Below, piece after piece: positions 4,969 to 51,861 of a DNA stretch of 53,550 nucleotides. The notes under the pieces were generated by a model, which searched no databases, was not told where the DNA came from, and saw nothing but the letters and a program-made list of their open reading frames with translations. The stretch's first letter is position 1. Each line of letters starts with the position of its first letter. The DNA is from Neotamlana sedimentorum. GTDB lineage: Bacteria; Bacteroidota; Bacteroidia; Flavobacteriales; Flavobacteriaceae. Location of the stretch: positions 1 through 53,550 of the forward strand of contig NZ_JTDW01000019.1 of the NCBI RefSeq assembly GCF_000943565.1, read 5' to 3'. The translations under genes and the position numbers were made by a program.

Positions 4969-5535
4969 CTAAAATTTATACCCTATTCGCAAGTGCATAT
5001 TTAATTCCATTTCACTTTTGTTCTTTACATAACCAGCGCGTTTAGCAAATGTGTAACTAAATCCTGCACCAAGACCTGCTTCAAAATCAAAGTGTTTACC
5101 TAAATTTCGCCTAATTCCCCAAGTGGGTATAATGGAAAAGTCACTTACTATAGGCGCATCGTCAGTATTGAACAGTGCCAATTCTGGATGATAACCCATC
5201 TTTAAAGCAATAAAATTGCCACTATTTCCATCAATTGGTTTTGAGTGCTCTGAGCGTTTTTTGAGGTTGTAATAGAATCTTGGCTCCACAACTATCACAG
5301 GTGTGAGTAGAAATGGAGAGTCATAATCATCGTAAAACGTAGATTCCCAAATACCAAAATCAAAACCGAGCTCTGTTCTCAGTGCTATGGTATTTGATAG
5401 TTTTGCTTCATTATATGCCCAGATTCCTAGAACTCCAGTTTGTAATCCGAATATTGATTTTTCTACACTTGTGCTTTGAGCTTTGGCGATTAATGTTAGT
5501 CCGCACAAAGTCAAGGTAATTAAAGTTTTTTTCAT
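4969..5535 (-). CDS. Secreted beta-barrel-like protein, duplicated unit copy 1
   Basis: A 188-residue protein with a signal peptide (MKKTLITLTLCGLTLIAKA) and alternating-hydrophobic strands ending in an aromatic-final motif (MHLRIGYKF), the usual C-terminal signal of small outer-membrane beta-barrels. No enzymatic motif. It is about 95% identical (nine differences, mostly in the signal peptide) to the protein at 7174-7740, and both lie downstream of a second paired gene, so a two-gene unit has been duplicated. Function unknown; probably an outer-membrane or periplasmic structural protein. Confidence 0.8.
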   Translation of the reverse strand: MKKTLITLTLCGLTLIAKAQSTSVEKSIFGLQTGVLGIWAYNEAKLSNTIALRTELGFDFGIWESTFYDDYDSPFLLTPVIVVEPRFYYNLKKRSEHSKPIDGNSGNFIALKMGYHPELALFNTDDAPIVSDFSIIPTWGIRRNLGKHFDFEAGLGAGFSYTFAKRAGYVKNKSEMELNMHLRIGYKF

Positions 5536-5713
5536 GATAATATTTATTTTAGATACAATTGAACTTGTAAATATGATTTATGTTCAATTTTTTCTCATTA
5601 CTCAGAACTTACTGTTTATGAAACGTAGCGTATAAATACACACTATATTTCACTTTAGTTCAGAGCTAAATTTTTATATTTTGTCAATAGATAAATTCAC
5701 TATATATTAAAGT

Positions 5714-6331
5714 TTATAACCAGCTAAACCCTAATCCTACATTAAAGATTACTGCATCTCTGTGTGCATCTCCATCTAAAGACGCACGACCAAGCACTAA
5801 TTTAGACTGAACATTAAGCGCAAAGTTTTTCTTTTTGTAAATTTCATAACCTGTACTTGCCATAACGGCGCAACCAAAGTTCCAATCATCATTTACATCA
5901 TCTTTAATATCATATAGTGCGGGCGAATCTATGGCTAAACCAATTCCGCCATGAATCCACCAGTTGTCTTTTACCCAATATTGTACAGATGGTATAAAAC
6001 CTCCAAAATTCCTGTCATTACCTTGAAATTCGTATATGTTTCCTGGCATAGCGGCAGTAATGGCAAGATTTTCATTCAACATATAGCCCAACTTTAGATC
6101 TGGAAAAACAAACGTTCCTTGAGCTTTATCAAAGGTTTGAATACCTTCACTATCTTCTAAACTGATTAGACCTCCACCTACTGAAAATTCAATAATAAAG
6201 CCATCTCGCTGTGTTGAGGTTTCTGGATTTGTGTTTTGAGCGTATGTTATACTTGATACTAATGCAAAGGCTACGCAAGCCATTCTTGATAAGATTTGTT
6301 TTTTGATTGTTTTCATTTTAATTAATTTCAT
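5714..6331 (-). CDS. Outer-membrane beta-barrel-like protein, duplicated unit copy 1
   Basis: A 205-residue protein with a signal peptide (cleavage near SITYAQ at ~32) and strand patterns of an outer-membrane protein, ending in VGLGFSWL with a typical aromatic end. It resembles small OmpW/OprF-like barrels in layout but I see no family-defining motif. The ATG at 6331 follows the shared leader; a second ATG five codons in (MKTIKKQ) is also possible. It is the intact counterpart of the broken copy at 7781-8398. It is followed by 4969-5535 and preceded by a tiny membrane protein gene, all on one strand. Confidence 0.8.
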   Translation of the reverse strand: MKLIKMKTIKKQILSRMACVAFALVSSITYAQNTNPETSTQRDGFIIEFSVGGGLISLEDSEGIQTFDKAQGTFVFPDLKLGYMLNENLAITAAMPGNIYEFQGNDRNFGGFIPSVQYWVKDNWWIHGGIGLAIDSPALYDIKDDVNDDWNFGCAVMASTGYEIYKKKNFALNVQSKLVLGRASLDGDAHRDAVIFNVGLGFSWL

Positions 6332-6332
6332 A

Positions 6333-6358
6333 ATTGTTCGTTTTTTGATTGATGATTT
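6333..6358 (-). promoter_or_regulatory. Shared 5' leader before 5714-6331
   Basis: Coding-strand reading AAATCATCAATCAAAAAACG then AACAAT and ATG. Same leader as at 4926-4950 and other sites; it lies between the small membrane gene and the barrel gene. Confidence 0.55.
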
Positions 6359-6381
6359 ATTTTGTAATTTGAGTTGTTACA

Positions 6382-6531
6382 TTAAGATTTTTTTGAGTAT
6401 TCTAACGCGGCACCAATGGCAATTCCAATTGGAAGCCATAAAGCTATGTTTGAGGTTAATAAGCCTACTAATACTCCTGAAAATATGCCTATTGCAAGTC
6501 TAATTCCTTTTTTACTTTTAATTGAATTCAT
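6382..6531 (-). CDS. Small hydrophobic protein (49 aa)
   Basis: A 49-codon frame from ATG at 6531 to TAA at 6382-6384. The product begins MNSIKSKKGIRLAIGIFSGV and ends ALEYSKKS, with a basic N-terminus and one long or two short hydrophobic helices containing spaced glycines (glycine-zipper-like). The start is preceded by a variant of the shared leader (CAAAAAGTG then AACAATTATG), which is the strongest sign that this short frame is real. It is likely an inner-membrane peptide, co-transcribed with the two barrel genes downstream. Function unknown. Confidence 0.6.
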   Translation of the reverse strand: MNSIKSKKGIRLAIGIFSGVLVGLLTSNIALWLPIGIAIGAALEYSKKS

Positions 6532-6761
6532 AATTGTTCACTTTTTGATTGTTTTTTTTTGATTAGGATAAACTTAAAAAAGGTCTTTAATCAATTAAAC
6601 TTTATATGATATTCGAATGTTTGTTAATGATAAACTACCTCTTACTAGTTACAAACAGAATTTGTACCTTATAATCATTTGTTAGTACTTATTTTTCCTT
6701 AGTTCATCTAATACATAAGTGATTAAATCCATAATAATTAAAAACTTGATTTTCGTTTCTA

Positions 6762-6868
6762 CAAAGATCGATCCAGAAGCAATATGCTTCCTACCCCTTA
6801 TGAAGCCTTATGTATAAAGTTTGAGGATAGATTGAAAACTATGACGCAGTTATATAAATTATGATGCA
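6762..6868 (-). promoter_or_regulatory. Promoter with paired 20-bp-spaced operator repeats (copy)
   Basis: CAAAGATC at 6762-6769 is a near-consensus -7 element read on the minus strand (GATCTTTG). ATGACGCA at 6841-6848 and ATGATGCA at 6861-6868 are direct repeats 20 bp apart. The same elements with almost the same spacing (72 versus 71 bases from the -7 box) occur at 15276-15381. The likely target is the minus-strand unit starting at 6531. Confidence 0.5.
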
Positions 6869-6931
6869 TATAAGGCTTTCTATCGCATCTTTTATTAATT
6901 TTTCTGACTTATATCCATTTTTGGCAGTAAT

Positions 6932-7105
6932 TTATTTTTCAATGACTAAGTTTTCCAAATACCTTAGCGCAGTAGCTACCAAATTCTTTCGATTTATTGC
7001 ATTTTCATTAAAAGAATCCAAGGTCTCTCTGTCTAGTTTTCGTCCTTTTAATCGCACTGCCGTCAACCTAATTGCTATCAACTTTATTAAATCCGTAGCT
7101 CCCAT
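6932..7105 (-). pseudogene. Possible C-terminal gene remnant (57 codons)
   Basis: A minus-strand frame from ATG at 7105 encodes about 57 residues beginning MGATDLIKLIAIRLTAVRLK and ending ALRYLENLVIEK. The amino-acid composition is that of a genuine protein (charged and helical), and the frame stays open for nine codons upstream of the ATG, which suggests the tail of a larger lost gene rather than a complete small protein. I do not recognise the family. No leader or promoter is seen before it. Confidence 0.35.
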
Positions 7106-7173
7106 GAAAAAAGAAATATTTACTATTTGGAGTTAAGCTTGGATAGGTTTCGTCAAATTGAGTGTTGTTTTTG

Positions 7174-7740
7174 CTAAAACCTATATCCTATTCGCAAGTG
7201 CATATTTAATTCCATTTCACTTTTGTTCTTTAAGTAGCCAGCGCGTTTAGCAAATGTGTAACTAAATCCTGCGCCAAGACCTGCTTCAAAATCAAAGTGT
7301 TTACCTAAATTTCGCCTAATTCCCCAAGTGGGTATAATGGAAAAGTCACTAACTACAGGCGCATCGTCAGTATTGAACAGCGCCAATTCTGGATGATAAC
7401 CCATCTTTAAAGCAATAAAATTGCCACTATTTCCATCAATTGGTTTTGAGTGCTCTGAGCGTTTTTTGAGGTTGTAATAGAATCTTGGCTCCACAACTAT
7501 TACAGGTGTAAGTAGAAATGGGGAGTCATAATCATCGTAAAACGTAGATTCCCAAATACCAAAATCAAAACCGAGCTCTGTTCTCAGTGCTATGGTATTT
7601 GATAGTTTTGCTTCATTATAAGCCCAGATTCCTAGAACTCCAGTTTGTAATCCGAATGTTGATTTTTCTACACTTGTGTTTTGAGATTTAGAGATTAATG
7701 TTAGTCCGCAAAAAATCAAGGTTATTAAAGTTTTTTTCAT
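7174..7740 (-). CDS. Secreted beta-barrel-like protein, duplicated unit copy 2
   Basis: A 188-residue paralogue of 4969-5535 with the same length, signal peptide (MKKTLITLIFCGLTLISKS) and C-terminal GYRF end. Only nine residues differ, five or six of them in the signal-peptide region. The mature proteins are nearly identical, so function should be the same. It lies 40 bases downstream of the broken barrel gene 7781-8398, compared with a 178-base gap in copy 1. Confidence 0.8.
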   Translation of the reverse strand: MKKTLITLIFCGLTLISKSQNTSVEKSTFGLQTGVLGIWAYNEAKLSNTIALRTELGFDFGIWESTFYDDYDSPFLLTPVIVVEPRFYYNLKKRSEHSKPIDGNSGNFIALKMGYHPELALFNTDDAPVVSDFSIIPTWGIRRNLGKHFDFEAGLGAGFSYTFAKRAGYLKNKSEMELNMHLRIGYRF

Positions 7741-7780
7741 GATAATATTTTTAGAATTATTTGAATTTGTAAATTCAACC

Positions 7781-8398
7781 TTATAACCAGCTAAATCCTA
7801 AGCCTACATTAAAGATTACTGCATCTCTATCTGCATTTCCATCTAAAGACACACTGCCAAGAACTAGTTTTGACTGCACATTAAGCGCAAAGTTTTTCTT
7901 TTTGTAAATCTAATAACCTGTACTTGCCATAACAGCGAAACCAAAGTTCCAATCGTCATTTACATCGTCTTTAATATCATATAGTGCTGGCGAATCTATT
8001 GCTAAACCAATTCCACCATGAATCCACCAACGATTTTTTACCCAATATTGTAGCGATGGAATAAAACCTCCAAAATTCCTGTCGTTATCTTGAAATTCAT
8101 ATATATTTCCTGGCATAGCGGCAGTAATGGCAAGATTTTCATTCAACATATAGCCCAACTTTAGATCTGGAAAAACAAACGTTCCTTGAGATTTGTCGAA
8201 CGTTTGAATACCTTCACTATCTTCTAAACTGATTAGACCTCCACCTACTGAAAATTCAATAATAAAGCCATCTCGCTGTGTTGAGGTTTCTGGATTTGTG
8301 TTTTGAGCGTATGTTATACTTGATACTAATGCAAAGGCTACGCAAGCCATTCTTAATAAGATTTGTTTTTTGATAGTTTTCATTATAATTGATTTCAT
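7781..8398 (-). pseudogene. Second copy of outer-membrane barrel gene, interrupted by a stop codon
   Basis: Read from ATG at 8398 (MKSIIMKTIKKQ), this gene parallels 5714-6331 for its whole length, with the same signal peptide. At 7907-7912 the sequence GGT TAT is followed by TAG where copy 1 has GAA (Tyr-Glu-Ile-Tyr). The remaining ~45 codons up to TAA at 7781-7783 are still open and still match copy 1 (ending NVGLGFSWL). The change GAA to TAG needs two substitutions. The truncated product would lose its last strands and the C-terminal aromatic signal, so it is probably non-functional unless the stop is read through. Confidence 0.8.
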
Positions 8399-8399
8399 T

Positions 8400-8416
8400 A
8401 TTGTTCGTTTTTTGAT
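8400..8416 (-). promoter_or_regulatory. Shared 5' leader before 7781-8398
   Basis: Coding-strand reading ATCAAAAAACG then AACAAT immediately before the ATG at 8398. It is the same leader as in copy 1 of the duplicated unit. Confidence 0.5.
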
Positions 8417-8448
8417 GGTGCAAATTTGAGGTATAAGAAAACTGTAAA

Positions 8449-8472
8449 CGTCCGAGATTATAATTTCGGACG
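8449..8472. promoter_or_regulatory. 24-bp palindromic operator candidate
   Basis: CGTCCGAGATTA followed by TAATTTCGGACG forms a 24-bp inverted repeat with one mismatch per arm. It lies 20-44 bp upstream of a weak -7-like CAAATTTG at 8421-8428 for the minus-strand barrel unit, so it overlaps the -33 region. It sits between that unit and the AraC-type regulator gene 8639-10414, which makes the regulator a natural candidate binder. Confidence 0.5.
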
Positions 8473-8638
8473 AATTCAAGTATTAAAATGAAAACTGTTT
8501 GAATTTTAAATTTGTTCGGTTAACTCTAGTGGTGTACAAGAGTAAAATAATTTTAAAATCTAAATATTAAGAAAGGATAAGGCATCTAAAAATTAATTTA
8601 AATTCTATTAACTGAGATAAAGGACTTGTAACTTTACG

Positions 8639-42213: not shown

Positions 42214-42930
42214 ATGACCACTCTAATCAAAATCATTGTTGCTGCTGTACTAAGCTTAAGCCTATTTTCCTGTAAATTTGATATGGGCGAGCGCGGTAAC
42301 GGCAATGTTGTAACCAGTAATAGACCCATAACCGAAAGTTTTAATACCATTAAAGCTACCGAAGGTTTAGATGTGCATTTAACACAAAGCAATACCGAAA
42401 GTATTATTGTAGAAGCCGACGAAAATTTACAAAACCTAATTTTAACCGATATTGAAGATGGTGTTTTAAAAATACATTGTAAAGAAAGTATTGGTTACTC
42501 TACCACTTTAAAAGTTAATATTAATTTTAAAGACGTTCATAGCATTATATCTACAAGTGGTAGCGATGTTTTTTCAAAAACACCAATTGTTGCAGAACAT
42601 TTAAACTTAAAATCTAGTAGCGGAAGTGATATAAAACTAGAAGTAAACACCAACAGCCTAAATTGCAAAGCAAGCAGTGGTAGCGATATACGCTTAAGCG
42701 GAAGCACACAAAAACTAACAGCCCAAGCCTCTAGCGGTAGCGATATTAGAGCTGCAGATTTAATAACAAAAAGCAGCGAAGTAAAGGCTTCTAGCGGTGC
42801 AGAAATAACAGTTAACACAACCGAAACACTAATTGCAAAAGCTTCTAGTGGTGCAGATGTAAATTATTATGGAAACCCAAAAACTGTTGATAAAAGCGAT
42901 AGTTCGTCTGGGAGTGTGCAGCAACGATAG
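42214..42930 (+). CDS. GIN-domain (DUF2807) lipoprotein
   Basis: A 238-residue lipoprotein (lipobox LFSC at ~19) with a DUF2807 'putative auto-transporter adhesin, head GIN' domain. It shows the repeated SSGSD/SSGA motif (SSGSDI repeated about five times), giving a beta-helix. It belongs to the padR/PspC operon and ends in a SSGSVQ-rich tail. Likely surface or periplasmic; the role is unknown. Confidence 0.92.
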   Translation: MTTLIKIIVAAVLSLSLFSCKFDMGERGNGNVVTSNRPITESFNTIKATEGLDVHLTQSNTESIIVEADENLQNLILTDIEDGVLKIHCKESIGYSTTLKVNINFKDVHSIISTSGSDVFSKTPIVAEHLNLKSSSGSDIKLEVNTNSLNCKASSGSDIRLSGSTQKLTAQASSGSDIRAADLITKSSEVKASSGAEITVNTTETLIAKASSGADVNYYGNPKTVDKSDSSSGSVQQR

Positions 42931-42958
42931 GTACTTTAGTAAATAAATAAAAAAACAA

Positions 42959-42992
42959 AACAGGCTTCGATTAATTATTGAAGCCTGTTTTT
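42959..42992 (+). terminator. Intrinsic terminator after the GIN-domain gene
   Basis: AACAGGCTTC (42959-42968) pairs with GAAGCCTGTT (42980-42989) around an 11-base loop and is followed by a T run. It ends the padR/PspC/GIN operon. Confidence 0.85.
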
Positions 42993-43150
42993 GTTATACT
43001 AAAATATTCGCCAAAATTATACTCATAATACTAATTTGTATTTATTAATTGCCTTGTTTAATTACAAATCTCCAAAAAATCGAAACAAAACTTATTCGCC
43101 CTTAAGTTTTCGGAAATTTTATGCTAATTTTAATTATATTTTTACTTAAA

Positions 43151-44218
43151 ATGAAAATGCACCCCAAAACGGAAGTTACTTTAGAAGGACTGGAAAATTC
43201 GATTAATCGGGGTATAGATTATTTACACGATCACCAATTACCTAACGGAGAGTTTATAGTTTATTTATCTGGAGATGATGCTATGCAATCTTGGACGCTC
43301 CCAGAAAGTTGTATTTTTCCTGCTTCATTAATAGGTCATTCTTTACTCACTCTTAAGGAAGACAAAAGGGTAAAAGAAATTCTAGACAAGACTGCAGCTT
43401 TTTTAATTTACCAAATGGATATAGGCGCAACTTGGAACCATTACACTATTCTTCACAGATATAGAAAAGTTTGCCCACAAGACTTAGACGACACAGCATG
43501 TGTATCTCATTTTTTAAGAGCTATGAACGCTGATTTTTCTTCTGAAATTAATAAAAAATTAATTCTGGATAATAAGAGAAAAGATGGTCTATTTTATACT
43601 TGGATTACGTTTCGATTAAAATTAAATTTTAATAAATTATATTGGAAATTATCTTTTAGAGAACTTAAAGTTCCTGTTAAATCATTACTATTTTGGAGAT
43701 CGGCCGATTGCAAACGAAACGACGTTGATGCCGTTGTTAATGCAAACATTTTATATTATTTAGGAAACAGTAATGAAACAAAGCCAATCGTAAATTATTT
43801 AATTAAAATAATAAAAGAAAACAAGGAAAATGATTGCGATGCTTGGTACAGAAACCCCATAACGGTATATTATTTTATTTCAAGAAATTTTACCCATTGC
43901 AATAATCTTAATACCATAAAAAAAGATTTGATAAGTAAAGTATTAAAACATCAAAATAAAGATGGTAGTTTTAGTAAATCCAGTTTAGAAACGGCGCTAG
44001 CAATTAGTACATTATTAAACCTAAATTATATGGAAAGCGAAGTGTTTTTAGCTGCTAAACACCTAATATCTAACCAAAAACAAAGAGGCAATTGGAACCG
44101 CTGGACATTGTACTATTCAGGACGCAGAAAACGCGGGACATTTGGTTCTGAAGAAATAACAACGGGGTATTGTTTAGAAGCATTGGCTAAATTAAAACCG
44201 CTCCTATTACCCACTTAA
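43151..44218 (+). CDS. Class-II-terpene-cyclase-like alpha/alpha-toroid protein
   Basis: A 355-residue protein of the prenyltransferase/squalene-cyclase toroid fold. DLDDTA at 111-116 matches the DxDDTA signature of class II cyclases, whose central Asp protonates an alkene or epoxide. Further toroid hairpins carry NDVDAVVNANILYYL (190-204), a QW-like DGSFSKSSLETALAISTLL (271-289) and GNWNRW (313-318) followed by EEITTGYCLEAL. It is much shorter than squalene-hopene cyclase (~630 aa), so it resembles a single beta-type barrel. I use the ATG at 43151; the frame extends back to an ATG at 43121 but adds a non-conserved hydrophobic stretch. First gene of the cluster; it has its own 111-base gap before the next gene. 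A non-catalytic toroid is a possible alternative. Confidence 0.72.
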   Translation: MKMHPKTEVTLEGLENSINRGIDYLHDHQLPNGEFIVYLSGDDAMQSWTLPESCIFPASLIGHSLLTLKEDKRVKEILDKTAAFLIYQMDIGATWNHYTILHRYRKVCPQDLDDTACVSHFLRAMNADFSSEINKKLILDNKRKDGLFYTWITFRLKLNFNKLYWKLSFRELKVPVKSLLFWRSADCKRNDVDAVVNANILYYLGNSNETKPIVNYLIKIIKENKENDCDAWYRNPITVYYFISRNFTHCNNLNTIKKDLISKVLKHQNKDGSFSKSSLETALAISTLLNLNYMESEVFLAAKHLISNQKQRGNWNRWTLYYSGRRKRGTFGSEEITTGYCLEALAKLKPLLLPT

Positions 44219-44329
44219 TCAGATGTTATAACCAATTTATCTATTTTTTTACAATCTAAACATACACTAAACTATATTTACCCTATAATATCCCAAAACC
44301 TTATAAAACTTCAATTTAACCTAATATTT

Positions 44330-46552
44330 GTGAAAAGCGTCCTTATTAAATTAATTAATTCTAATAGAATTTTTTTTAATATATTCTACAAGTTTCAAAA
44401 AATAAAACAGCGAATTCTTCCCCAAAAGAAGAACTTGCTTTTTATATTTAGTGGGCGTTCTGAATACAATTTAAATATGGGTTTAGAGCTTTTTGAAAAC
44501 GAAAGTGTCTTTAAATCATCTATTTTAGAATCTAATGAAATAATAACTCAACTAGGAGGAACCAGCATTTTACCAAATTTTTCGAAAACTGCACCAAACA
44601 ACTTTTTCGAAACTGAAACTAATATATACAATACAATAGCTGCCATTCAAATAGCAACTTTTGATTTATTAAAAAATAAAAAAACTTCACCTAACGCAAT
44701 TCTTGGTTTAAGCATGGGAGAGGTGTCTGGTTTGTATGCTTCTGGAGCAATACCAAAACTAGAAGTTTTTAAAATTTTGCAAGCCATGGAGGTTACTAGC
44801 TCCCATGAAAGCCAATCGTACGTTTCTATTTTAATAAATGAAAGTATTGAGGTTTTAAACTATACTGCAAATGACGATCTAAATATAATTCATCCCGTTT
44901 ACGAAAATACACCAAAATCAACAATTGCTTTAGTAGATGAAGCTAACATTGCTCTTCTAAAAGAATATTGTAAGAAAAACGAATTAACATATAGAGTTAT
45001 TTCAAAAAACAACCTATTTCCTTATCATACATCAAAAATTGAAGATTTTAAAGCTGAAGTAAAAGAATGTTTTAAAGACTTAAATTTTTCACCCTTAACA
45101 ACCGATTATTACTCAGGGTCTGCAGGAACTGTTATTCCTAAAGGTACAATTTTAAATGAAGACTTTTTTTACCATTGTTTAAGGCATGTAGTTCTAGCCA
45201 ATTCAGTTTTCATTAAAATAAAAGAAACTAACGAACTGTTTGACCTCGTTCAAATTGGCCCAAATATTTTTGGAATTAATCACTTAAAAGGAATATTATC
45301 GAACAATATTGTTCCAACAATTTTTCAAACGTTTTCCAAATCAAACAACTATATTCTATTCAAAAACACATTTAAAGCTATTCATAAAATTGGAAAGCAA
45401 AATTATAGCTTAATATCGAAAGAAGAACCTTTTACTTCGTTTATTGAAAATTTCAACATTAGTGATAAGTATTATAAAAACAAACCAATACCCTATTGGT
45501 CGTATTTAAAAACAAAAGGAAACATCCATTTTTTACCAAGTTGTCAAACTTGGCTAGTTATAGATCACAACACGATTAGTGATATTCTAAAAACTCCAGA
45601 AGTATTCTCAAGTAAACCTTATAAAGATTTCGATCCCTATTTGGTTGGAGCAGATGCTCCTTCTCATGAGAAAATGAGAGGGCTATTACAATCTGTTTTT
45701 TCTAGCAAATCACTAAACCGACTTGAGCATTTTGCTACTAAAAAAGCGGAAAAATTAATACAAAATTTCCCGAAAAATTGTCCAATAAACTTTGTTGATT
45801 ATTTTTCATTACAATTATCTCGATCTGTAACTTTTTGTTTATTAGGTTTAGATGAAATTCAAGCGGATAAAGTTAATAGCATTATAGGTGTTAATAACTT
45901 TGACACAAATGACCTACTAATTGGATTGTTTCGTGATTTATTGGCATCGAATTATAAATTTGATGATGATTCGGCGATGGCGTACTTAAAAGAACAGATA
46001 ACACTTAAAACAATGTCGTTAGAGGCAGCATCAAGTATAGCCAGATTATTGTTTACGGCAGGCGTATTAACAACTACAATGCTTTTAACCAATTCATTTT
46101 TAGAGTTAATGAAATCCCCGAACATCGTCGACACTTTGGAAAAATCTCCTAAATTAAAAAACAGATTTATTGATGAAATTTTAAGACTTCATCCACCCGA
46201 AACAATCCTGTTTAGGCAAATAACCAAAAATATTCATCTAAACGATGTGCATATTCCACAAAATGCTATGATTGCTTTAGATATAAGATCGGCGAACCTT
46301 GACAAAAAAGTTTATGCCGATCCGTTTACTATAAACTTAGAAAGAAGCAATACAAAACACCTTTCGTTTGGCGCCGGCGCTCATGTTTGTATTGGTATAG
46401 GACTTGCCAAACTGGAAGCAAAAATTGCTTTAAATTATTATTTCGATATTATTAAAAAAATGAACCCCATATTAACTGACGACATTACTTATTTTGATTC
46501 TAGCCACTTATACGGACCAAAAATTGTAAACGTACAATTCAAAAAAGCTTAA
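44330..46552 (+). CDS. Acyltransferase (AT)-cytochrome P450 fusion
   Basis: A single 740-residue frame joins two enzymes. Residues ~34-340 are a FabD/PKS-type AT domain: FSGRSEY replaces the usual GQGSQ motif, GLSMGE carries the nucleophile Ser128, FPYH carries His233, and VQIGPN is the late motif. Aligning without gaps to FabD places Met153 where the malonyl-binding Arg117 belongs, so a neutral acyl group is the likely substrate. Residues ~385-740 are a P450: HEKMR (446-450), I-helix TAGVLTTT (576-583) with Leu in place of the usual acid, EILR (616-619), and heme site FGAGAHVCIG with Cys687. The start is GTG at 44330. Three bases separate it from the ABC gene. The fused architecture suggests oxidation of an acyl chain held as a thioester or a substrate handed between domains; the reaction is unknown. 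Confidence 0.88.
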   Translation: MKSVLIKLINSNRIFFNIFYKFQKIKQRILPQKKNLLFIFSGRSEYNLNMGLELFENESVFKSSILESNEIITQLGGTSILPNFSKTAPNNFFETETNIYNTIAAIQIATFDLLKNKKTSPNAILGLSMGEVSGLYASGAIPKLEVFKILQAMEVTSSHESQSYVSILINESIEVLNYTANDDLNIIHPVYENTPKSTIALVDEANIALLKEYCKKNELTYRVISKNNLFPYHTSKIEDFKAEVKECFKDLNFSPLTTDYYSGSAGTVIPKGTILNEDFFYHCLRHVVLANSVFIKIKETNELFDLVQIGPNIFGINHLKGILSNNIVPTIFQTFSKSNNYILFKNTFKAIHKIGKQNYSLISKEEPFTSFIENFNISDKYYKNKPIPYWSYLKTKGNIHFLPSCQTWLVIDHNTISDILKTPEVFSSKPYKDFDPYLVGADAPSHEKMRGLLQSVFSSKSLNRLEHFATKKAEKLIQNFPKNCPINFVDYFSLQLSRSVTFCLLGLDEIQADKVNSIIGVNNFDTNDLLIGLFRDLLASNYKFDDDSAMAYLKEQITLKTMSLEAASSIARLLFTAGVLTTTMLLTNSFLELMKSPNIVDTLEKSPKLKNRFIDEILRLHPPETILFRQITKNIHLNDVHIPQNAMIALDIRSANLDKKVYADPFTINLERSNTKHLSFGAGAHVCIGIGLAKLEAKIALNYYFDIIKKMNPILTDDITYFDSSHLYGPKIVNVQFKKA

Positions 46553-46555
46553 TTT

Positions 46556-48352
46556 ATGCTAAAAGATTTCAAATTAAAGCTTGACAAGTTCAAAAACAGC
46601 TTAAACCTTAAAAGGTCAATAAAACTAATTTGGACAATTACCGAAGGAAAAGTATTGAATACATTAATTATAATGTTTTTCGAGAGTTTATTCTTTATGG
46701 GTAGTTTGTATATATTTAAAAAATTAATAGACATTGTTGCTGCTTCTAATTTAGAAGAAAAAGAAACTCTAGTGATAACATATTTAAGTGTTGCTGGATT
46801 ATCTACTTTATGCTACTTAATCCTAAGATCATTTTCAACTTATTACACCCAAAAACAATCTGCAGTAATAAGTGAATATATTGATGATAAAATACATAGC
46901 AAAGCTATAAAATTAGACTATTCATTTTACGAAAGTCCTGCTTATTTTAACACACTCGAAAGAGCCAAAAATGCCGGTCCAGAACGGCCAGCTGCTATAT
47001 TAACTGATTTAGTTAATCTTTCAAAAAACACCATCATGCTTGGCGTTTTAGGATTTTCGTTAATATATATTAGTTGGTTGTTGTTACCATTATTAGCATT
47101 ATTTGTTTTTCCAACACTTTATGTACGTTTACAATTTGCAAACAAGCTTTTTGAATGGCAAATGCAAAAAACACCTTTAGAACGTAAATCTTATTACTTA
47201 GGTAATTTAATTACAGGAGAAGTAGCCGTAAAAGAAATTAAAACATTTAATCTTGGGGCATACCTAAAATCTAATTACCTAAAAATTCGTCTCAATTTAC
47301 TAAACGAGAACTTCCGAATTACAAAAAAGGCTACTATTAACGAAACAACCACCAATATTCTAGCTGCTCTAGGTATGTATAGTTGCGTTGCTTTTATTTG
47401 TATAAGCACTTTAAATGGCACCACATCAATTGGAGATATTGCTTTATTTTTAGTTGTATTTCCACAACTTTTTAGTGTTATGCAATCGCTTTCAAATGGT
47501 ATATCATCCCTATATCAAAACAATATTTTCTTAAGCTATTTATTCGATTTATTGGATTTAGAACCGGCGATGACAGACAAACCCAACACACTTAAAATCC
47601 CTTACAACAACCCAGATTTAGTTATAAAAAATGTAAACTTTAAATACCCACACGCCGAAAAAACAACTCTTAAAAATATAAGTTTAAAAATACCAGCAGG
47701 AAAAGTAGTTGCATTAGTAGGACTTAATGGTTCTGGTAAAACAACACTTATAAAATTACTTAGTAGACTTTACGATCCTACCTCCGGAACCGTTGAACTT
47801 GGTGGCGAAAACATTAAAAACTTTAAAATAGACGACTTTAGAAATCAAATTAGTGTGGTTTTTCAAGATTTCGTAAAATATAATTTAAGTGCAGCCGAAA
47901 ACATTAAATTTGGTAATATCGATGCCGAATTAGATGAAGCATTAATGGTTGAATCTGCAAAAAAATCTGGAGCACACGATTTTATTAAAACTTTCCCCGA
48001 AAAATATGACACCACCATGGGAAGAATTTTTGAAAATGGTAAAGAAGTAAGTATAGGTCAATGGCAAAAAATTGCAATAGCCAGGGCCTTTTATAGTAAA
48101 TCTCAATTTATAATATTTGATGAAGCCACCAGCGCATTAGATGCAAAGTCCGAGCAAGAATTATTTGATGACTTAAGAGCTAATATTGGCAATCGTGGCA
48201 TTTTAGTTATAAGCCATAGAGTTTCTGCTGTAAAGCATGCCGATTACATATATGTTTTATCTAAAGGTGAAATTGCGCAAGAAGGCACTCACGAAAAACT
48301 TATTTCTTTAGATGGAGATTATGCCAAGTTATTTAAAAGAAAAACAAAATAA
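46556..48352 (+). CDS. ABC exporter, fused membrane and ATPase domains
   Basis: A 598-residue half-transporter with six membrane helices (~35-310) and a nucleotide-binding domain: Walker A GLNGSGKTT (~384-392), signature VSIGQWQKIAIARA, Walker B FIIFDEAT and H-loop SHR. The SIGQW version of the signature resembles exporters of lantibiotics and other secreted metabolites. It should dimerise and export the cluster product or a lipid precursor. No peptidase domain is present. It begins three bases after the AT-P450 gene. Confidence 0.93.
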   Translation: MLKDFKLKLDKFKNSLNLKRSIKLIWTITEGKVLNTLIIMFFESLFFMGSLYIFKKLIDIVAASNLEEKETLVITYLSVAGLSTLCYLILRSFSTYYTQKQSAVISEYIDDKIHSKAIKLDYSFYESPAYFNTLERAKNAGPERPAAILTDLVNLSKNTIMLGVLGFSLIYISWLLLPLLALFVFPTLYVRLQFANKLFEWQMQKTPLERKSYYLGNLITGEVAVKEIKTFNLGAYLKSNYLKIRLNLLNENFRITKKATINETTTNILAALGMYSCVAFICISTLNGTTSIGDIALFLVVFPQLFSVMQSLSNGISSLYQNNIFLSYLFDLLDLEPAMTDKPNTLKIPYNNPDLVIKNVNFKYPHAEKTTLKNISLKIPAGKVVALVGLNGSGKTTLIKLLSRLYDPTSGTVELGGENIKNFKIDDFRNQISVVFQDFVKYNLSAAENIKFGNIDAELDEALMVESAKKSGAHDFIKTFPEKYDTTMGRIFENGKEVSIGQWQKIAIARAFYSKSQFIIFDEATSALDAKSEQELFDDLRANIGNRGILVISHRVSAVKHADYIYVLSKGEIAQEGTHEKLISLDGDYAKLFKRKTK

Positions 48353-48358
48353 AACAAC

Positions 48359-49540
48359 ATGAATCCCAAAAAAAACAACATGTTGACAAATAATCACATC
48401 GCCATACTTTCTACCTGCGAAGACGATTGGGGCGGAAGCGAAGAGCTTTGGGCATTAAGCATTCCTTTTTTACAAGCCAAAAACTGTGCAATTACTTTGG
48501 TAAAGGACACCATTAATCAAAAACACCGTAGAATAGCCGAACTAAAAGCTAGAAATGTGCAGTTTAAAGAATTAACCAATAAACCTCCTCGAGGCCTAGG
48601 CAGATTCTACAACGCATATAACATGCTTACGCAACAGTATCATAAACTAGCATATAATAATTTTGAAGCTTTTTTAAAGAAAGAAAGCCCTACGTTGGTT
48701 GTAATTTCTCAAGGTATAAATTTTGATGCCCTTTATTATGGTTACTTATGCTTAAAACACCATATTGATTATGTTATAATTTCTCAAAAAGCAGTCGAAT
48801 TTTATTGGCCTGCAAAAGATGATAGAGATTATATGATTGAAACATTAAAACATGCAAAAAAATGTTTTTTTGTCTCGAAACACAATCAAAACTTAACTGA
48901 AGAACAATTTGGTTTTCGGTTTAAAAATGCTCATATCATTTATAATCCCAATAAACTAGACAATATTGAACCTATTCCGTACCCGGCTACAGATAATGGA
49001 TTTAAACTCGCTTTAATTGGCAGATTATTAATTATAGACAAAGGTCAAGATATTATTTTAAGAGTATTATCTCAAGAAAAATGGAAGGCCCGAAATTTAA
49101 GTGTTTCGATTATTGGTAGTGGTCCAGATGAAAAAGCCCTTAAAGATTTAGCTAAGTTATTAGATATTAAAAATATAGATTTTTTAGGTTTTAAAAATAA
49201 TATTGAAGATATTTGGCATAACCATCATACATTACTACTCCCCTCAAGAAGTGAAGGTCTGCCCTTAGTTGTTATTGAAGCTATGGCTGCTGGTCGTCCA
49301 GTTATAGCCACTAATGCCGGTGGTACCAACGAAATTATCCAAGATAATAAAACTGGATTTATAGGATATGCTAATGAGGCTAGTTTAGATGAGACCCTAG
49401 AAACAGCATGGAATTCAAGAAACTCTTGGAAAAAAATGGGCATTGAAGCTGCAAAAACGATAAAAAATAAACTCCCAAATAAACCAGAACAAGAATTTGC
49501 TAACATTGTTATAGCACTAATGTATCATGAAAAAAATTGA
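48359..49540 (+). CDS. GT4-type glycosyltransferase (GT-B fold)
   Basis: A 393-residue glycosyltransferase. The N-part carries STCEDDWGGSEELWA (acceptor side) and the C-part carries LIGRLLIIDKGQDI, then SEGLPLVVIEAMA (the EX7E motif) and TNAGGTNEII for the nucleotide-sugar donor. A retaining mechanism is expected for family GT4. It starts six bases after the ABC gene and overlaps the next GT gene by 14 bases. Donor and acceptor are unknown. Confidence 0.93.
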   Translation: MNPKKNNMLTNNHIAILSTCEDDWGGSEELWALSIPFLQAKNCAITLVKDTINQKHRRIAELKARNVQFKELTNKPPRGLGRFYNAYNMLTQQYHKLAYNNFEAFLKKESPTLVVISQGINFDALYYGYLCLKHHIDYVIISQKAVEFYWPAKDDRDYMIETLKHAKKCFFVSKHNQNLTEEQFGFRFKNAHIIYNPNKLDNIEPIPYPATDNGFKLALIGRLLIIDKGQDIILRVLSQEKWKARNLSVSIIGSGPDEKALKDLAKLLDIKNIDFLGFKNNIEDIWHNHHTLLLPSRSEGLPLVVIEAMAAGRPVIATNAGGTNEIIQDNKTGFIGYANEASLDETLETAWNSRNSWKKMGIEAAKTIKNKLPNKPEQEFANIVIALMYHEKN

Positions 49541-50516
49541 AACACCATTAGTATCGGTAATAATCCCTACCTACAATAGGGTGAAAATGTTAGGGAATGC
49601 TATTAATAGCGCCCTAAACCAAACATACAAAAACTATGAGATCATTATTGTTGACGATGGCTCTACCGATGGAACAGAAGAATTTATAAAACAAAACTTC
49701 TCTAATTTAAAATACATAAAAAAAGAAAATGGCGGACAAGCTTCTGCGAGAAATGCCGGTCTTGAACACGTCAATGGAAAATATATTGCTTCGTTAGATT
49801 CTGATGATTGTTGGCACGAAAACTTCTTAGAAAAATTAGTAGAAAAATTAGAAAACGATAATTTCGATTTTGTTTTTGCCAACTGGAGCCAAGAACAGAA
49901 AGATGGTAAATTTATTGATTACTTATTAAAACAATATATACATCTTCCTGAAGATCATCCAAAAGAAACTAATGTTTGGATTGAACTCGACTATGATGAT
50001 TTGAGAAGCATTTACATTGCAGGATGCCCTTCTCCATCAACATCTCTTCTTATTAAAGCAGAATTACTTAAAAAATTAGGTTGGAATGAAGAAATGAGTA
50101 TTGGAGATGATTGGTGCATGTTACTAGACATTATTTTTAATAATAAAATTAAAGGAGCCTATACAACAGAACAACTTTGGAAAAAGCATATAAATGCAAA
50201 TAATATTTACGACGGCCGAAACAGAATGGAAGTTTTAAAACTTTTACATATTAAAGACAAATCTGCCATATTAAATAGATATAAGCATTTAATGACACCT
50301 AGTGAAATTGGCCATATGCAAAATGAATATGTAACTAACTTAATATTAATCTCAAAAGAATCTTTAAAAATACATAAAAACGTTAAAGATTTTACCTTGT
50401 ATTTCTTTAAGGCTTTAGCAAATTATCCTAAGCTTGCTTTAAAATTAATGTTTAAAGGCGGAGTTAGAAAGATAATAGCCCGAAACTCTAATAAAAACGT
50501 TGTTGTTAACAAATGA
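49527..50516 (+). CDS. GT2-type glycosyltransferase (GT-A fold)
   Basis: A 329-residue family 2 transferase with VSVIIPTYNR, VDDGSTDGT, NGGQASARNAGL and the metal-binding SLDSDDCW. A GDDWCM segment near residue 193 is the likely catalytic-base region. It is cytoplasmic or membrane-associated and inverting. It overlaps both neighbours, so all three genes should be translated together. Confidence 0.93.
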   Translation: MKKIETPLVSVIIPTYNRVKMLGNAINSALNQTYKNYEIIIVDDGSTDGTEEFIKQNFSNLKYIKKENGGQASARNAGLEHVNGKYIASLDSDDCWHENFLEKLVEKLENDNFDFVFANWSQEQKDGKFIDYLLKQYIHLPEDHPKETNVWIELDYDDLRSIYIAGCPSPSTSLLIKAELLKKLGWNEEMSIGDDWCMLLDIIFNNKIKGAYTTEQLWKKHINANNIYDGRNRMEVLKLLHIKDKSAILNRYKHLMTPSEIGHMQNEYVTNLILISKESLKIHKNVKDFTLYFFKALANYPKLALKLMFKGGVRKIIARNSNKNVVVNK

Positions 50517-51514
50517 AAGTTCCTTCAATTTTTAGGTCTACCGACTGGTGGGATTACAAAATTGTTCCTCTTTTAACTATAGGCTATTTAACAATTATGT
50601 TAAACAGCTTTAATTTAGTACAACATATTGCTTGGTTACTTTTTTTAATTCTTGCAATTGCAGTAGGCGCTATTTATGTTAGCATTATTAACGATTATAC
50701 CGATGTTAAATTTGATTTAGATAGCGGAAAATCGAACAGATTAGCAAAGTTTACGCCATTTAAAAGAGGTTTAATCTTAGCTTTTTCTATACTAATAAGC
50801 CTTTGTTTTTGTATATATTTTAGCTCCGATTTATTAAGCTTTACCTTTTATTTTTCTGCCTACATAATGTTTAGCTTGTACTCTATTCCTCCTTTTAGAT
50901 TTAAAAACCGAGGTATATTAGGTGTAATTGCAGATGCTAGTGGCGCTCATTTATTCCCTAGCTTATTCGTGTATGCCGCCATGGTTTATAAACTCGAACT
51001 AGAAATTAACTATTACTTATTAATACTTATTACAATTTGGTCTTTAGCCTGCGGACTAAGAGGCAATATGTGGCATCAATTTTGGGATCGTGAAAACGAT
51101 TTATCAATTAACCATAAAACTTTTGCTACATCAATTAGTAACATAAATTCTATAAAACCTTTTGAAATTATTATTTCAATTATAGAAGTTGTAAGTCTAT
51201 TTTTAATTTTAGTGAAACTGGGTTTTATACTACCAATACTAGGCTTATTGTTTTATGCCATTTTACTTTTAGGATATAAAAAAATCAAATACAAAATAAT
51301 AGTTATCCTATCCGGTAATCCGCCGTGGCATATTTTTATGAGTGATTTTTACGAAGTTATATTGCCTTTTACTTTAATATTCACTTGCACCATTTATTAT
51401 CCTTGGAGTGCAACTCTATTACTAGTTCACTTTATTCTGTTTCCTAAAAAACCACTAATACTATTAAAAAATATTAAAATGATGCTAAAATCTGTTTTAA
51501 AGAAAATAGATTAA
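50513..51514 (+). CDS. UbiA-family prenyltransferase
   Basis: A 333-residue integral-membrane protein with about nine helices and both aspartate-rich motifs: NDYTDVKFDLDSG (residues 60-72, NDxxDxxxD) and DREND (192-196). YSIPPFRFKNRG (123-134) is another family mark. UbiA enzymes transfer a polyprenyl chain from its diphosphate to an aromatic, sugar-phosphate or other acceptor with Mg2+. In this cluster, likely acceptors are a small aromatic or a sugar phosphate (as in decaprenyl-phosphoribose synthase). Its ATG overlaps the GT2 stop (ATGA). Last gene of the cluster; convergent with the fucose operon. Confidence 0.9.
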   Translation: MKVPSIFRSTDWWDYKIVPLLTIGYLTIMLNSFNLVQHIAWLLFLILAIAVGAIYVSIINDYTDVKFDLDSGKSNRLAKFTPFKRGLILAFSILISLCFCIYFSSDLLSFTFYFSAYIMFSLYSIPPFRFKNRGILGVIADASGAHLFPSLFVYAAMVYKLELEINYYLLILITIWSLACGLRGNMWHQFWDRENDLSINHKTFATSISNINSIKPFEIIISIIEVVSLFLILVKLGFILPILGLLFYAILLLGYKKIKYKIIVILSGNPPWHIFMSDFYEVILPFTLIFTCTIYYPWSATLLLVHFILFPKKPLILLKNIKMMLKSVLKKID

Positions 51515-51531
51515 AATTACATTTTAGCCTT

Positions 51532-51861
51532 TTATAACTCAAAAATCTTTTCCATTAACATCCATTTTTCACCAGGTTTGGCAGTAGGTAAAGCTTGCTG
51601 ATATTTCCACATTAACGTTTCCCATTCTTGCACCTTAGCATTGTTTAAATCCATTTCATTTTTCTTCTCAAACGAAAACGTATCGTTTACTTCCATAATC
51701 ATAAACAATCTATTTGCTACCAAATAAATATCTAAAACTTCTATTCCCGAATCTTTTATACTGGCAATAATTTCTGGCCAAACGTTTTTATGATAATCTT
51801 TATAAGCCTCTATTAAAGCTGCATCATCCTTTAAATCGAGAGCAAAACAATGTTTTTTCAT
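51532..51861 (-). CDS. L-rhamnose/L-fucose mutarotase
   Basis: A 109-residue RhaM-type mutarotase (L-rhamnose mutarotase family) that interconverts alpha and beta anomers. It contains the conserved YKDYHKNVWPEI and WETLMWKYQ with a likely catalytic His near the start. Since it follows a fucose permease, L-fucose is the likely sugar here. It is the last gene of the operon. Confidence 0.9.
   Translation of the reverse strand: MKKHCFALDLKDDAALIEAYKDYHKNVWPEIIASIKDSGIEVLDIYLVANRLFMIMEVNDTFSFEKKNEMDLNNAKVQEWETLMWKYQQALPTAKPGEKWMLMEKIFEL

Follow-up and report, generated by a model that had tools for sequence, protein, structure and literature searches.

Closest described systems and layout of the block

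Class II terpene cyclases of the DxDD type are defined by protonation-initiated cyclisation, and single-domain members that act on attached prenyl chains are known from few bacteria, MstE being an example. MstE, the merosterolic acid synthase of Scytonema (PDB 6SBB-6SBG), is a monodomain class II meroterpenoid cyclase. Here we describe a block of six genes in Neotamlana sedimentorum (GCF_000943565.1) that opens with a predicted stand-alone cyclase of this type, called TOR below (table 1); the window analysed is positions 1 to 53,550 of contig NZ_JTDW01000019.1, and positions are counted from its first letter. Compared with MstE, TOR is tied to two glycosyltransferases (GTs), a fusion of an acyltransferase with a cytochrome P450 (AT-P450) and an ABC exporter, and its acceptor is not evident. 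We propose, with a probability of about 0.6, that the block is a pathway, gained by horizontal transfer, to a ring-closed prenyl conjugate of the meroterpenoid type that is oxidised and glycosylated. Gene integrity, gain as a block, reclustering in other genomes, the predicted fold and residues of TOR, and the motifs of UbiA, P450 and AT are the observations from which we infer every substrate, the sequence of the steps, the sugars attached and export.

AsDMS and AstC are HAD-type drimenol/drimane synthases (PMC9128629, PMC13244436, PMC12365925). TOR has in common with them the Asp/Asp/Tyr/Asn network and a single basic anchor, but it has no HAD domain, carries Trp for Tyr in the diphosphate pocket and has a UbiA partner. 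The fungal meroterpenoid pathways that combine a UbiA prenyltransferase with a Pyr4 cyclase include a polyketide synthase (PKS) and usually an epoxidase (PMC10882540). The logic that they have in common with the block is to prenylate, cyclise and tailor. Pyr4 belongs to another protein family than TOR. The ebo cluster, a bacterial cluster linked to Bacteroidetes (PMC5133447, PMC6282210), was rejected as an identity for the block. It has six genes, among them one for the UbiA-family protein EboC, but Pfam shows ebo-like domains in no other gene of the window. Glycan-type clusters of UbiA with asparagine-synthase-like proteins occur at L056, L057 and L062 (which have TOR too) and on the Methylomagnum plasmid L144 (L and G numbers are our own for loci and genomes); unlike these, the block lacks AsnB, an ABC-2 pair and a sulfotransferase in Pfam.

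Table 1. Genes and edges of the gained block in the window.
Feature	Position	Strand	Remarks
Left edge of gained block	42931..43120		follows DUF2807 gene 42214-42930
Block of six intact open reading frames	43121..51514	+	
TOR, predicted stand-alone class II terpene cyclase, MstE/TC-beta type	43121..44218	+	365 amino acids
AT-P450 fusion	44330..46552	+	740 amino acids, GTG start; both domains in Pfam
ABC exporter, MsbA-like	46556..48352	+	598 amino acids; membrane and ATPase parts on one chain
GT4-family glycosyltransferase	48359..49540	+	393 amino acids; Pfam
GT2-family glycosyltransferase	49527..50516	+	329 amino acids; Pfam
UbiA-family membrane prenyltransferase	50513..51514	+	333 amino acids; PF01040
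Right edge of gained block	51515..51531		borders rhaM-type L-rhamnose mutarotase gene 51532-51861, - strand

The original prediction had described six same-strand genes with spacings of 111, 3 and 6 bases and overlaps of 14 and 4 bases, and these figures are exact. It had placed the start of the cluster at 43151, which is an in-frame ATG of the TOR reading frame, whereas the frame itself opens at 43121. Its statement that the six genes include no PKS, nonribosomal peptide synthetase (NRPS) or common terpene synthase holds in Pfam and NCBIfam. AT and P450, which lie in the same protein, exceed their curated Pfam cut-offs, and so do ABC_tran, GT4, GT2 and UbiA.

The predicted cyclase and its prenyltransferase partner

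As a single sequence TOR is marginal in the family databases. In Pfam, SQHop_cyclase_C reaches E 0.011 and the top match is an unrelated TPR model (0.003), both below cut-off; the NCBIfam model TIGR01787 reaches E 0.0015, and the best PDB match is 8.2e-4. Because these matches are weak, its identity was settled by a homologue profile together with the fold. The profile finds the TC-beta domain of the HAD-type drimane synthases as the nearest solved sequence relative (1.8e-13), and the nearest fold to the predicted structure is MstE, to which neither the single sequence nor the profile gives a match at E<=1. TOR is a single alpha/alpha toroid of about 340 residues, as are the monodomain MstE-like cyclases, and by alignment it has the acid motif D121-L-D123-D124-T125 together with Y243 and N209, corresponding to the catalytic Asp and its Tyr/Asn partners. 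D121, D123 and Y243 are identical in all five aligned rows and N209 in four (Ser in L020), a pattern to be read with the caveat that DxDDT and NAN are retained in RodA-type toroids too. Neither the N-terminal HAD domain nor the DDxxE motif of the HAD-type drimenol synthases belongs to TOR, in which Pfam finds no HAD domain along the 365 residues, and a squalene-hopene cyclase proper was considered and rejected. The 'toroid cyclase-like' label of the original prediction is corrected to a predicted MstE-like single-domain class II terpene cyclase.

The UbiA protein scores 42.8 bits against PF01040 (cut-off 34.2), and its motifs NDxxDxxxD (N60-D68) and DxxxD (D192-D196), both typical of prenyltransferases, are invariant in five rows. 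No close relative was found in the PDB, the best match being ChlG (1.3e-3). A UbiA of the DPPR-synthase type was rejected, since the block UbiA keeps DxxxD. The genome itself has five PF01040 genes in 3.96 Mb, and two PF00348 genes could supply prenyl diphosphates.

In the proposed pathway UbiA would couple an allylic prenyl diphosphate (C15 or longer, from the host polyprenyl synthases) to a small acceptor, after which D123 of TOR, held by Y243 and N209, would protonate the terminal prenyl double bond and at least two rings would close, in a step modelled on MstE with geranylgeranyl-dihydroxybenzoate. The reverse order, which fits either a small-molecule or a glycan product, is nearly as likely as prenylation first: TOR may first cyclise geranylgeranyl diphosphate or a prenyl diphosphate of greater length; the terpenyl diphosphate so formed would still be allylic and would be transferred by UbiA. 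The substrate would have to be of this length because the product must stay allylic, and drimenyl-type (C15) products would no longer be so. By alignment two basic residues, R199 and R336, lie in the head-group pocket of TOR. R199 takes the place of the diphosphate anchors R378 of AsDMS and K314 of AstC and is Arg or Lys in all five rows of profile A1, R336 corresponds to R513 of AsDMS and is basic in four of the five, and no HAD phosphatase is fused to TOR, unlike in AsDMS and AstC. On the other hand, MstE, the nearest fold, acts after prenylation, and the two diphosphate-binding Tyr of AsDMS are Trp in TOR. The R199 position is basic in only 11 of the 19 tree rows that are neither RodA-type, HAD-type nor IPPS-fused, so the anchor is not general, and the basic residues of TOR could hold a carboxylate instead.

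No acceptor-forming synthase of the kind expected in a meroterpenoid cluster was found among the six genes in Pfam or NCBIfam. This would suit a role of UbiA as a class I membrane terpene cyclase acting on the TOR product, which would yield a plain terpenoid glycoside with no acceptor, and UbiA-fold terpene cyclases are known. We consider this role improbable: both canonical prenyltransferase Asp motifs are kept, although class I cyclases may keep such motifs, and related UbiA genes stand without TOR beside GTs, AsnB and NRPS-PKS genes.

Gain as a block, reclustering and fusions

The six genes were acquired as one block. In the congener G1015 the DUF2807 and rhaM genes adjoin, 66 bases apart and with no block between them, and in the congeners G173 and G1014 a single unrelated gene (313 and 344 amino acids, nuclease-like by eye) fills the gap. 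Since these neighbours adjoin or enclose another gene in congeners, the cluster coincides at both ends with an accessory insertion. In the four genus genomes the gap is a variable slot, empty in one, occupied by a nuclease-like gene in two and by the cluster in one. The TOR profile matches one of the four genomes of the genus, two of 39 in the family of G401 and none of three other genomes of the genus of G401 (code g317). A single-sequence search with TOR matched 5 of 299 genomes of the family at E<=1e-3, with full-length matches only in the own genome and G209, and 6 of 395 in the phylum, four of them full-length at >=42% identity (own, G428, G401, G456), one in two pieces at 32-34% (G504) and one in part (G347). 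Profile A1 matched 29 of 395 class genomes and overlooked at least one (G884, whose TOR was later found in L123). The presence of TOR in few members of unrelated families suggests its horizontal spread. In searches of viral sequences TOR matched L055, and UbiA had no match.

Homologous cassettes occur together in four other Bacteroidota genomes and at more distant loci. The order is TOR-ABC-GT4-GT2-UbiA in L018 (G209; 53-69% identical, without AT-P450), and aminotransferase, acyltransferase-3, ABC, GT4, TOR, UbiA, GT2 in L019 (G428), with the acyltransferase-3 in place of AT-P450; the ABC protein is 69% identical in L018 and 52% in L019. L020 (G401) has TOR, a sulfotransferase-like gene (24.6 of 27 bits, below cut-off), AT-P450, GT4, GT2 and UbiA; L021 (G456) and L055 (a contig listed as viral) have GT4, UbiA and TOR; and the Novosphingobium plasmid locus L105 has a weak GT2, GT4, an ABC ATPase, TOR, a sulfotransferase-like gene (by eye) and UbiA. 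In G375 and G952, which share the genus code of G428, the core ABC-GT4-GT2-UbiA occurs without TOR. Among nine core loci at E<=1e-40, GT4 and UbiA are found in nine, TOR in seven, GT2 in six, this ABC in five and AT-P450 in two. GT4 and UbiA, present at all nine, are therefore the constant pair, and TOR, GT2, ABC and the tailoring enzymes are frequent or optional modules. AT-P450 does not belong to the conserved core: in the fetched stretches of the six core-group TOR loci it is present in the window and L020 and absent from L018, L019, L021 and L055.

The association of TOR with UbiA was counted at 35 loci. A UbiA homologue lies in the stretch at 15 of 18 non-RodA-type TOR loci, at a gap of 0 to 5.3 kb; leaving out L123, which had been retrieved with UbiA, gives the fairer figure of 14 of 17, and L067 and L068, which have the same genus code, do not count as independent. 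The three TOR loci without UbiA are L022 (TOR 1.8 kb from the contig start, 12 kb read), L058 (a 3-kb contig) and L070 (a 14.8-kb contig with TOR 1 kb from its start), and the genomes of the latter two carry such a UbiA on another contig. No UbiA homologue was found at the eight RodA-type toroid loci (stretches of 6.9-20 kb) or at L023, L024 and L071. Outside the count, not being 20-kb stretches, are two fragments, G921, G780, G832 and G806 (RodA-type in size; context by BLAST to the RodA-like gene of the window, 1.5-kb flanks), and G797, G965, G848 and G823 (toroid proteins of 741-764 amino acids). Mapped on the tree, the label 'UbiA near' requires 4 changes, compared with 10.3 when shuffled, with the caveat that some branches are weak and long and that L123 is among the rows. 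The opposite direction is looser, with many loci of the UbiA search lacking TOR.

The RodA-type toroids form a clade of 464-526 amino acids in Bacteroidia (L060, L061, L063-L066, L072, L073) and keep DxDDT and NAN though no terpene role is evident; in L063 at least, the N-terminus looks by eye like a signal sequence and the neighbouring genes like PBP2/RodA. L066 was rejected as HAD-type, as the tree places it with these toroids, and L024 is the sole locus still labelled HAD-type (putative). In two Bacteroidota loci (L023:9708-11933, L071:1960-3858) a toroid follows a polyprenyl-synthase-like domain (by eye), and these may be bifunctional terpene synthases.

Fusions join the same functions. 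P450 and TOR form a single polypeptide with UbiA directly next in L057 and L059, and a plasmid of Nostoc sp. C052 (L104:12054-15710, NZ_CP040276.1) encodes one protein of 1218 amino acids with the order PhyH dioxygenase-UbiA-TOR-TPR, annotated as a TPR protein only, whose neighbours are GTs, a sulfotransferase and an ABC permease/ATPase pair. UbiA-GT4 fusions (753-767 amino acids) occur in four class genomes (L110-L113) with no toroid in the stretch, and an Oscillatoria plasmid has a methyltransferase-UbiA-PhyH fusion without TOR. Each of the four functions cyclase, prenyltransferase, oxygenase and glycosyltransferase thus shares a polypeptide with another of the four in at least one locus; none of the fusions examined between these groups takes in export or acylation. 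The original prediction would be at odds with scattered homologues, or with GTs and ABC transporters unlinked to the toroid and AT-P450; instead the genes recluster, and P450-cyclase, UbiA-cyclase and UbiA-GT fusions exist. Bacteria commonly have GTs and ABC exporters, yet a chance neighbourhood of unrelated envelope genes is highly implausible, because the genes are grouped in other families and the block has clean edges in congeners; reclustering, fusions and block insertion contradict it.

Tailoring, export and the kind of product

In the AT-P450 protein, the AT domain (about residues 36-300) is FabD/PKS-AT-like and the P450 domain covers about 380-737. AT keeps the Ser/His pair in GLSMGE (S128) and PYHT (H233), aligned to FabD 3im8, but the Arg-bearing segment of this FabD corresponds to a gap. 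In the malonyl-type acyltransferases of FabD and PKS this Arg binds the carboxylate. AT is about equally close to PksD (1.2e-11), reportedly an acyl hydrolase, and to FabD (9e-12). Because the FabD Arg segment is missing and PksD is as near as FabD, AT could transfer a non-carboxylated acyl group or hydrolyse. Of the earlier interpretation, the single unit and the enzymes for a prenyl-derived, oxidised, glycosylated and exported product are supported, and acylation is a possible step. P450 (PF00067, 81 bits) has the heme Cys in FGAGAHVC at 680 (C687) and ExxR in EILR at 616 (E616xxR619). Its I-helix reads AGVLTTT in the window and AGTTTTS in L020, so that the Thr is retained and the acid replaced; the acid-alcohol pair is typical of P450s but not obligatory in all. 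The co-occurrence search that had been suggested for the fusion found it at E<=1e-25 in 2 of 395 Bacteroidota genomes (own and G401; two candidates scored per genome), both times inside a TOR-UbiA cluster. A match to the AT domain in L011, from the AT-P450 search of genome contigs, was judged irrelevant.

In the ABC protein the ABC_membrane domain is below cut-off (18.1 of 28 bits); full-length exporter models of NCBIfam match it, MsbA best with 295 bits, below the equivalog cut-offs. In the proposed pathway the P450 domain would hydroxylate the ring system, the fused AT would perhaps acylate or de-acylate, GT4 and GT2 would add sugars, and the MsbA-type protein would carry the amphiphile out of the inner membrane.

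The gene content of the relatives bears on the kind of product. In G952 the TOR-free core is preceded by the assembly-line proteins A-PCP-KS-AT-ACP-aminotransferase and C-A-MT-PCP-TE (NRPS-PKS) and a phosphopantetheinyl transferase, which favours small molecules in the core group. More distant TOR-UbiA loci have differing sets of asparagine-synthase-like amidotransferases (L056, L057, L062), sugar epimerases (L059, L069), sulfotransferases (L069, Nostoc), ABC-2 permease and ATPase (L067, Nostoc) and GTs, and several of them favour glycan conjugates there. For the window, a terpene-capped surface glycan, in which UbiA and TOR would make a polycyclic terpenoid anchor or cap, with the GTs assembling the glycan and the ABC protein flipping it, the product not being a free small molecule, is bolder and rather unlikely. 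The UbiA-GT4 fusions and the FdtA and DegT-type sugar genes preceding the TOR-free core in G375 speak for it; the block, however, has just two GTs and an MsbA-type exporter, and neither an ABC-2 permease with separate ATPase nor sugar-nucleotide genes, as expected of a capsule or O-antigen cluster, were found in it by Pfam or NCBIfam, and one core-type relative is joined to NRPS-PKS.

A more novel reading, less likely than not, is an undescribed class of terpenylated glycoconjugates, in which UbiA and an MstE-like cyclase would attach a polycyclic terpenoid to acceptors that are glycans or peptides, with sporadic horizontal spread in Bacteroidota, Cyanobacteriota and Pseudomonadota, the window holding a minimal six-gene version with the rare AT-P450. 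Searches of openly licensed PMC papers brought up none that connects UbiA, a stand-alone class II cyclase and GTs in bacteria. If the proposed pathway is right, a stand-alone cyclase with UbiA and GT4 would be a signature with which to search for glycosylated cyclic terpenoids beyond the usual cluster classes, ready-made fusions would be at hand for study, and it could be asked whether polycyclic terpenes decorate the surface glycans of bacteria. The window cluster is small enough for whole transfer into a laboratory host.

Among the related UbiA loci, the Methylomagnum plasmid (L144:7689-18462, NZ_AP019784.1) carries a polyprenyl synthetase, radical SAM, AsnB, UbiA, GTs and an ABC permease/ATPase, possibly a prenylated-glycan pathway that includes a synthase for the prenyl donor. 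The G+C content is 30.5% in the block and 32.9% in the window. The Bacteroidota promoter pattern gave 3 matches against 6.47 expected, and the sigma-70/terminator scan was likewise uninformative. Elsewhere in the window, at 4969-8479, two tandem pairs of near-alike proteins (188 amino acids twice; 205 and 189) appear by eye to be a duplication.

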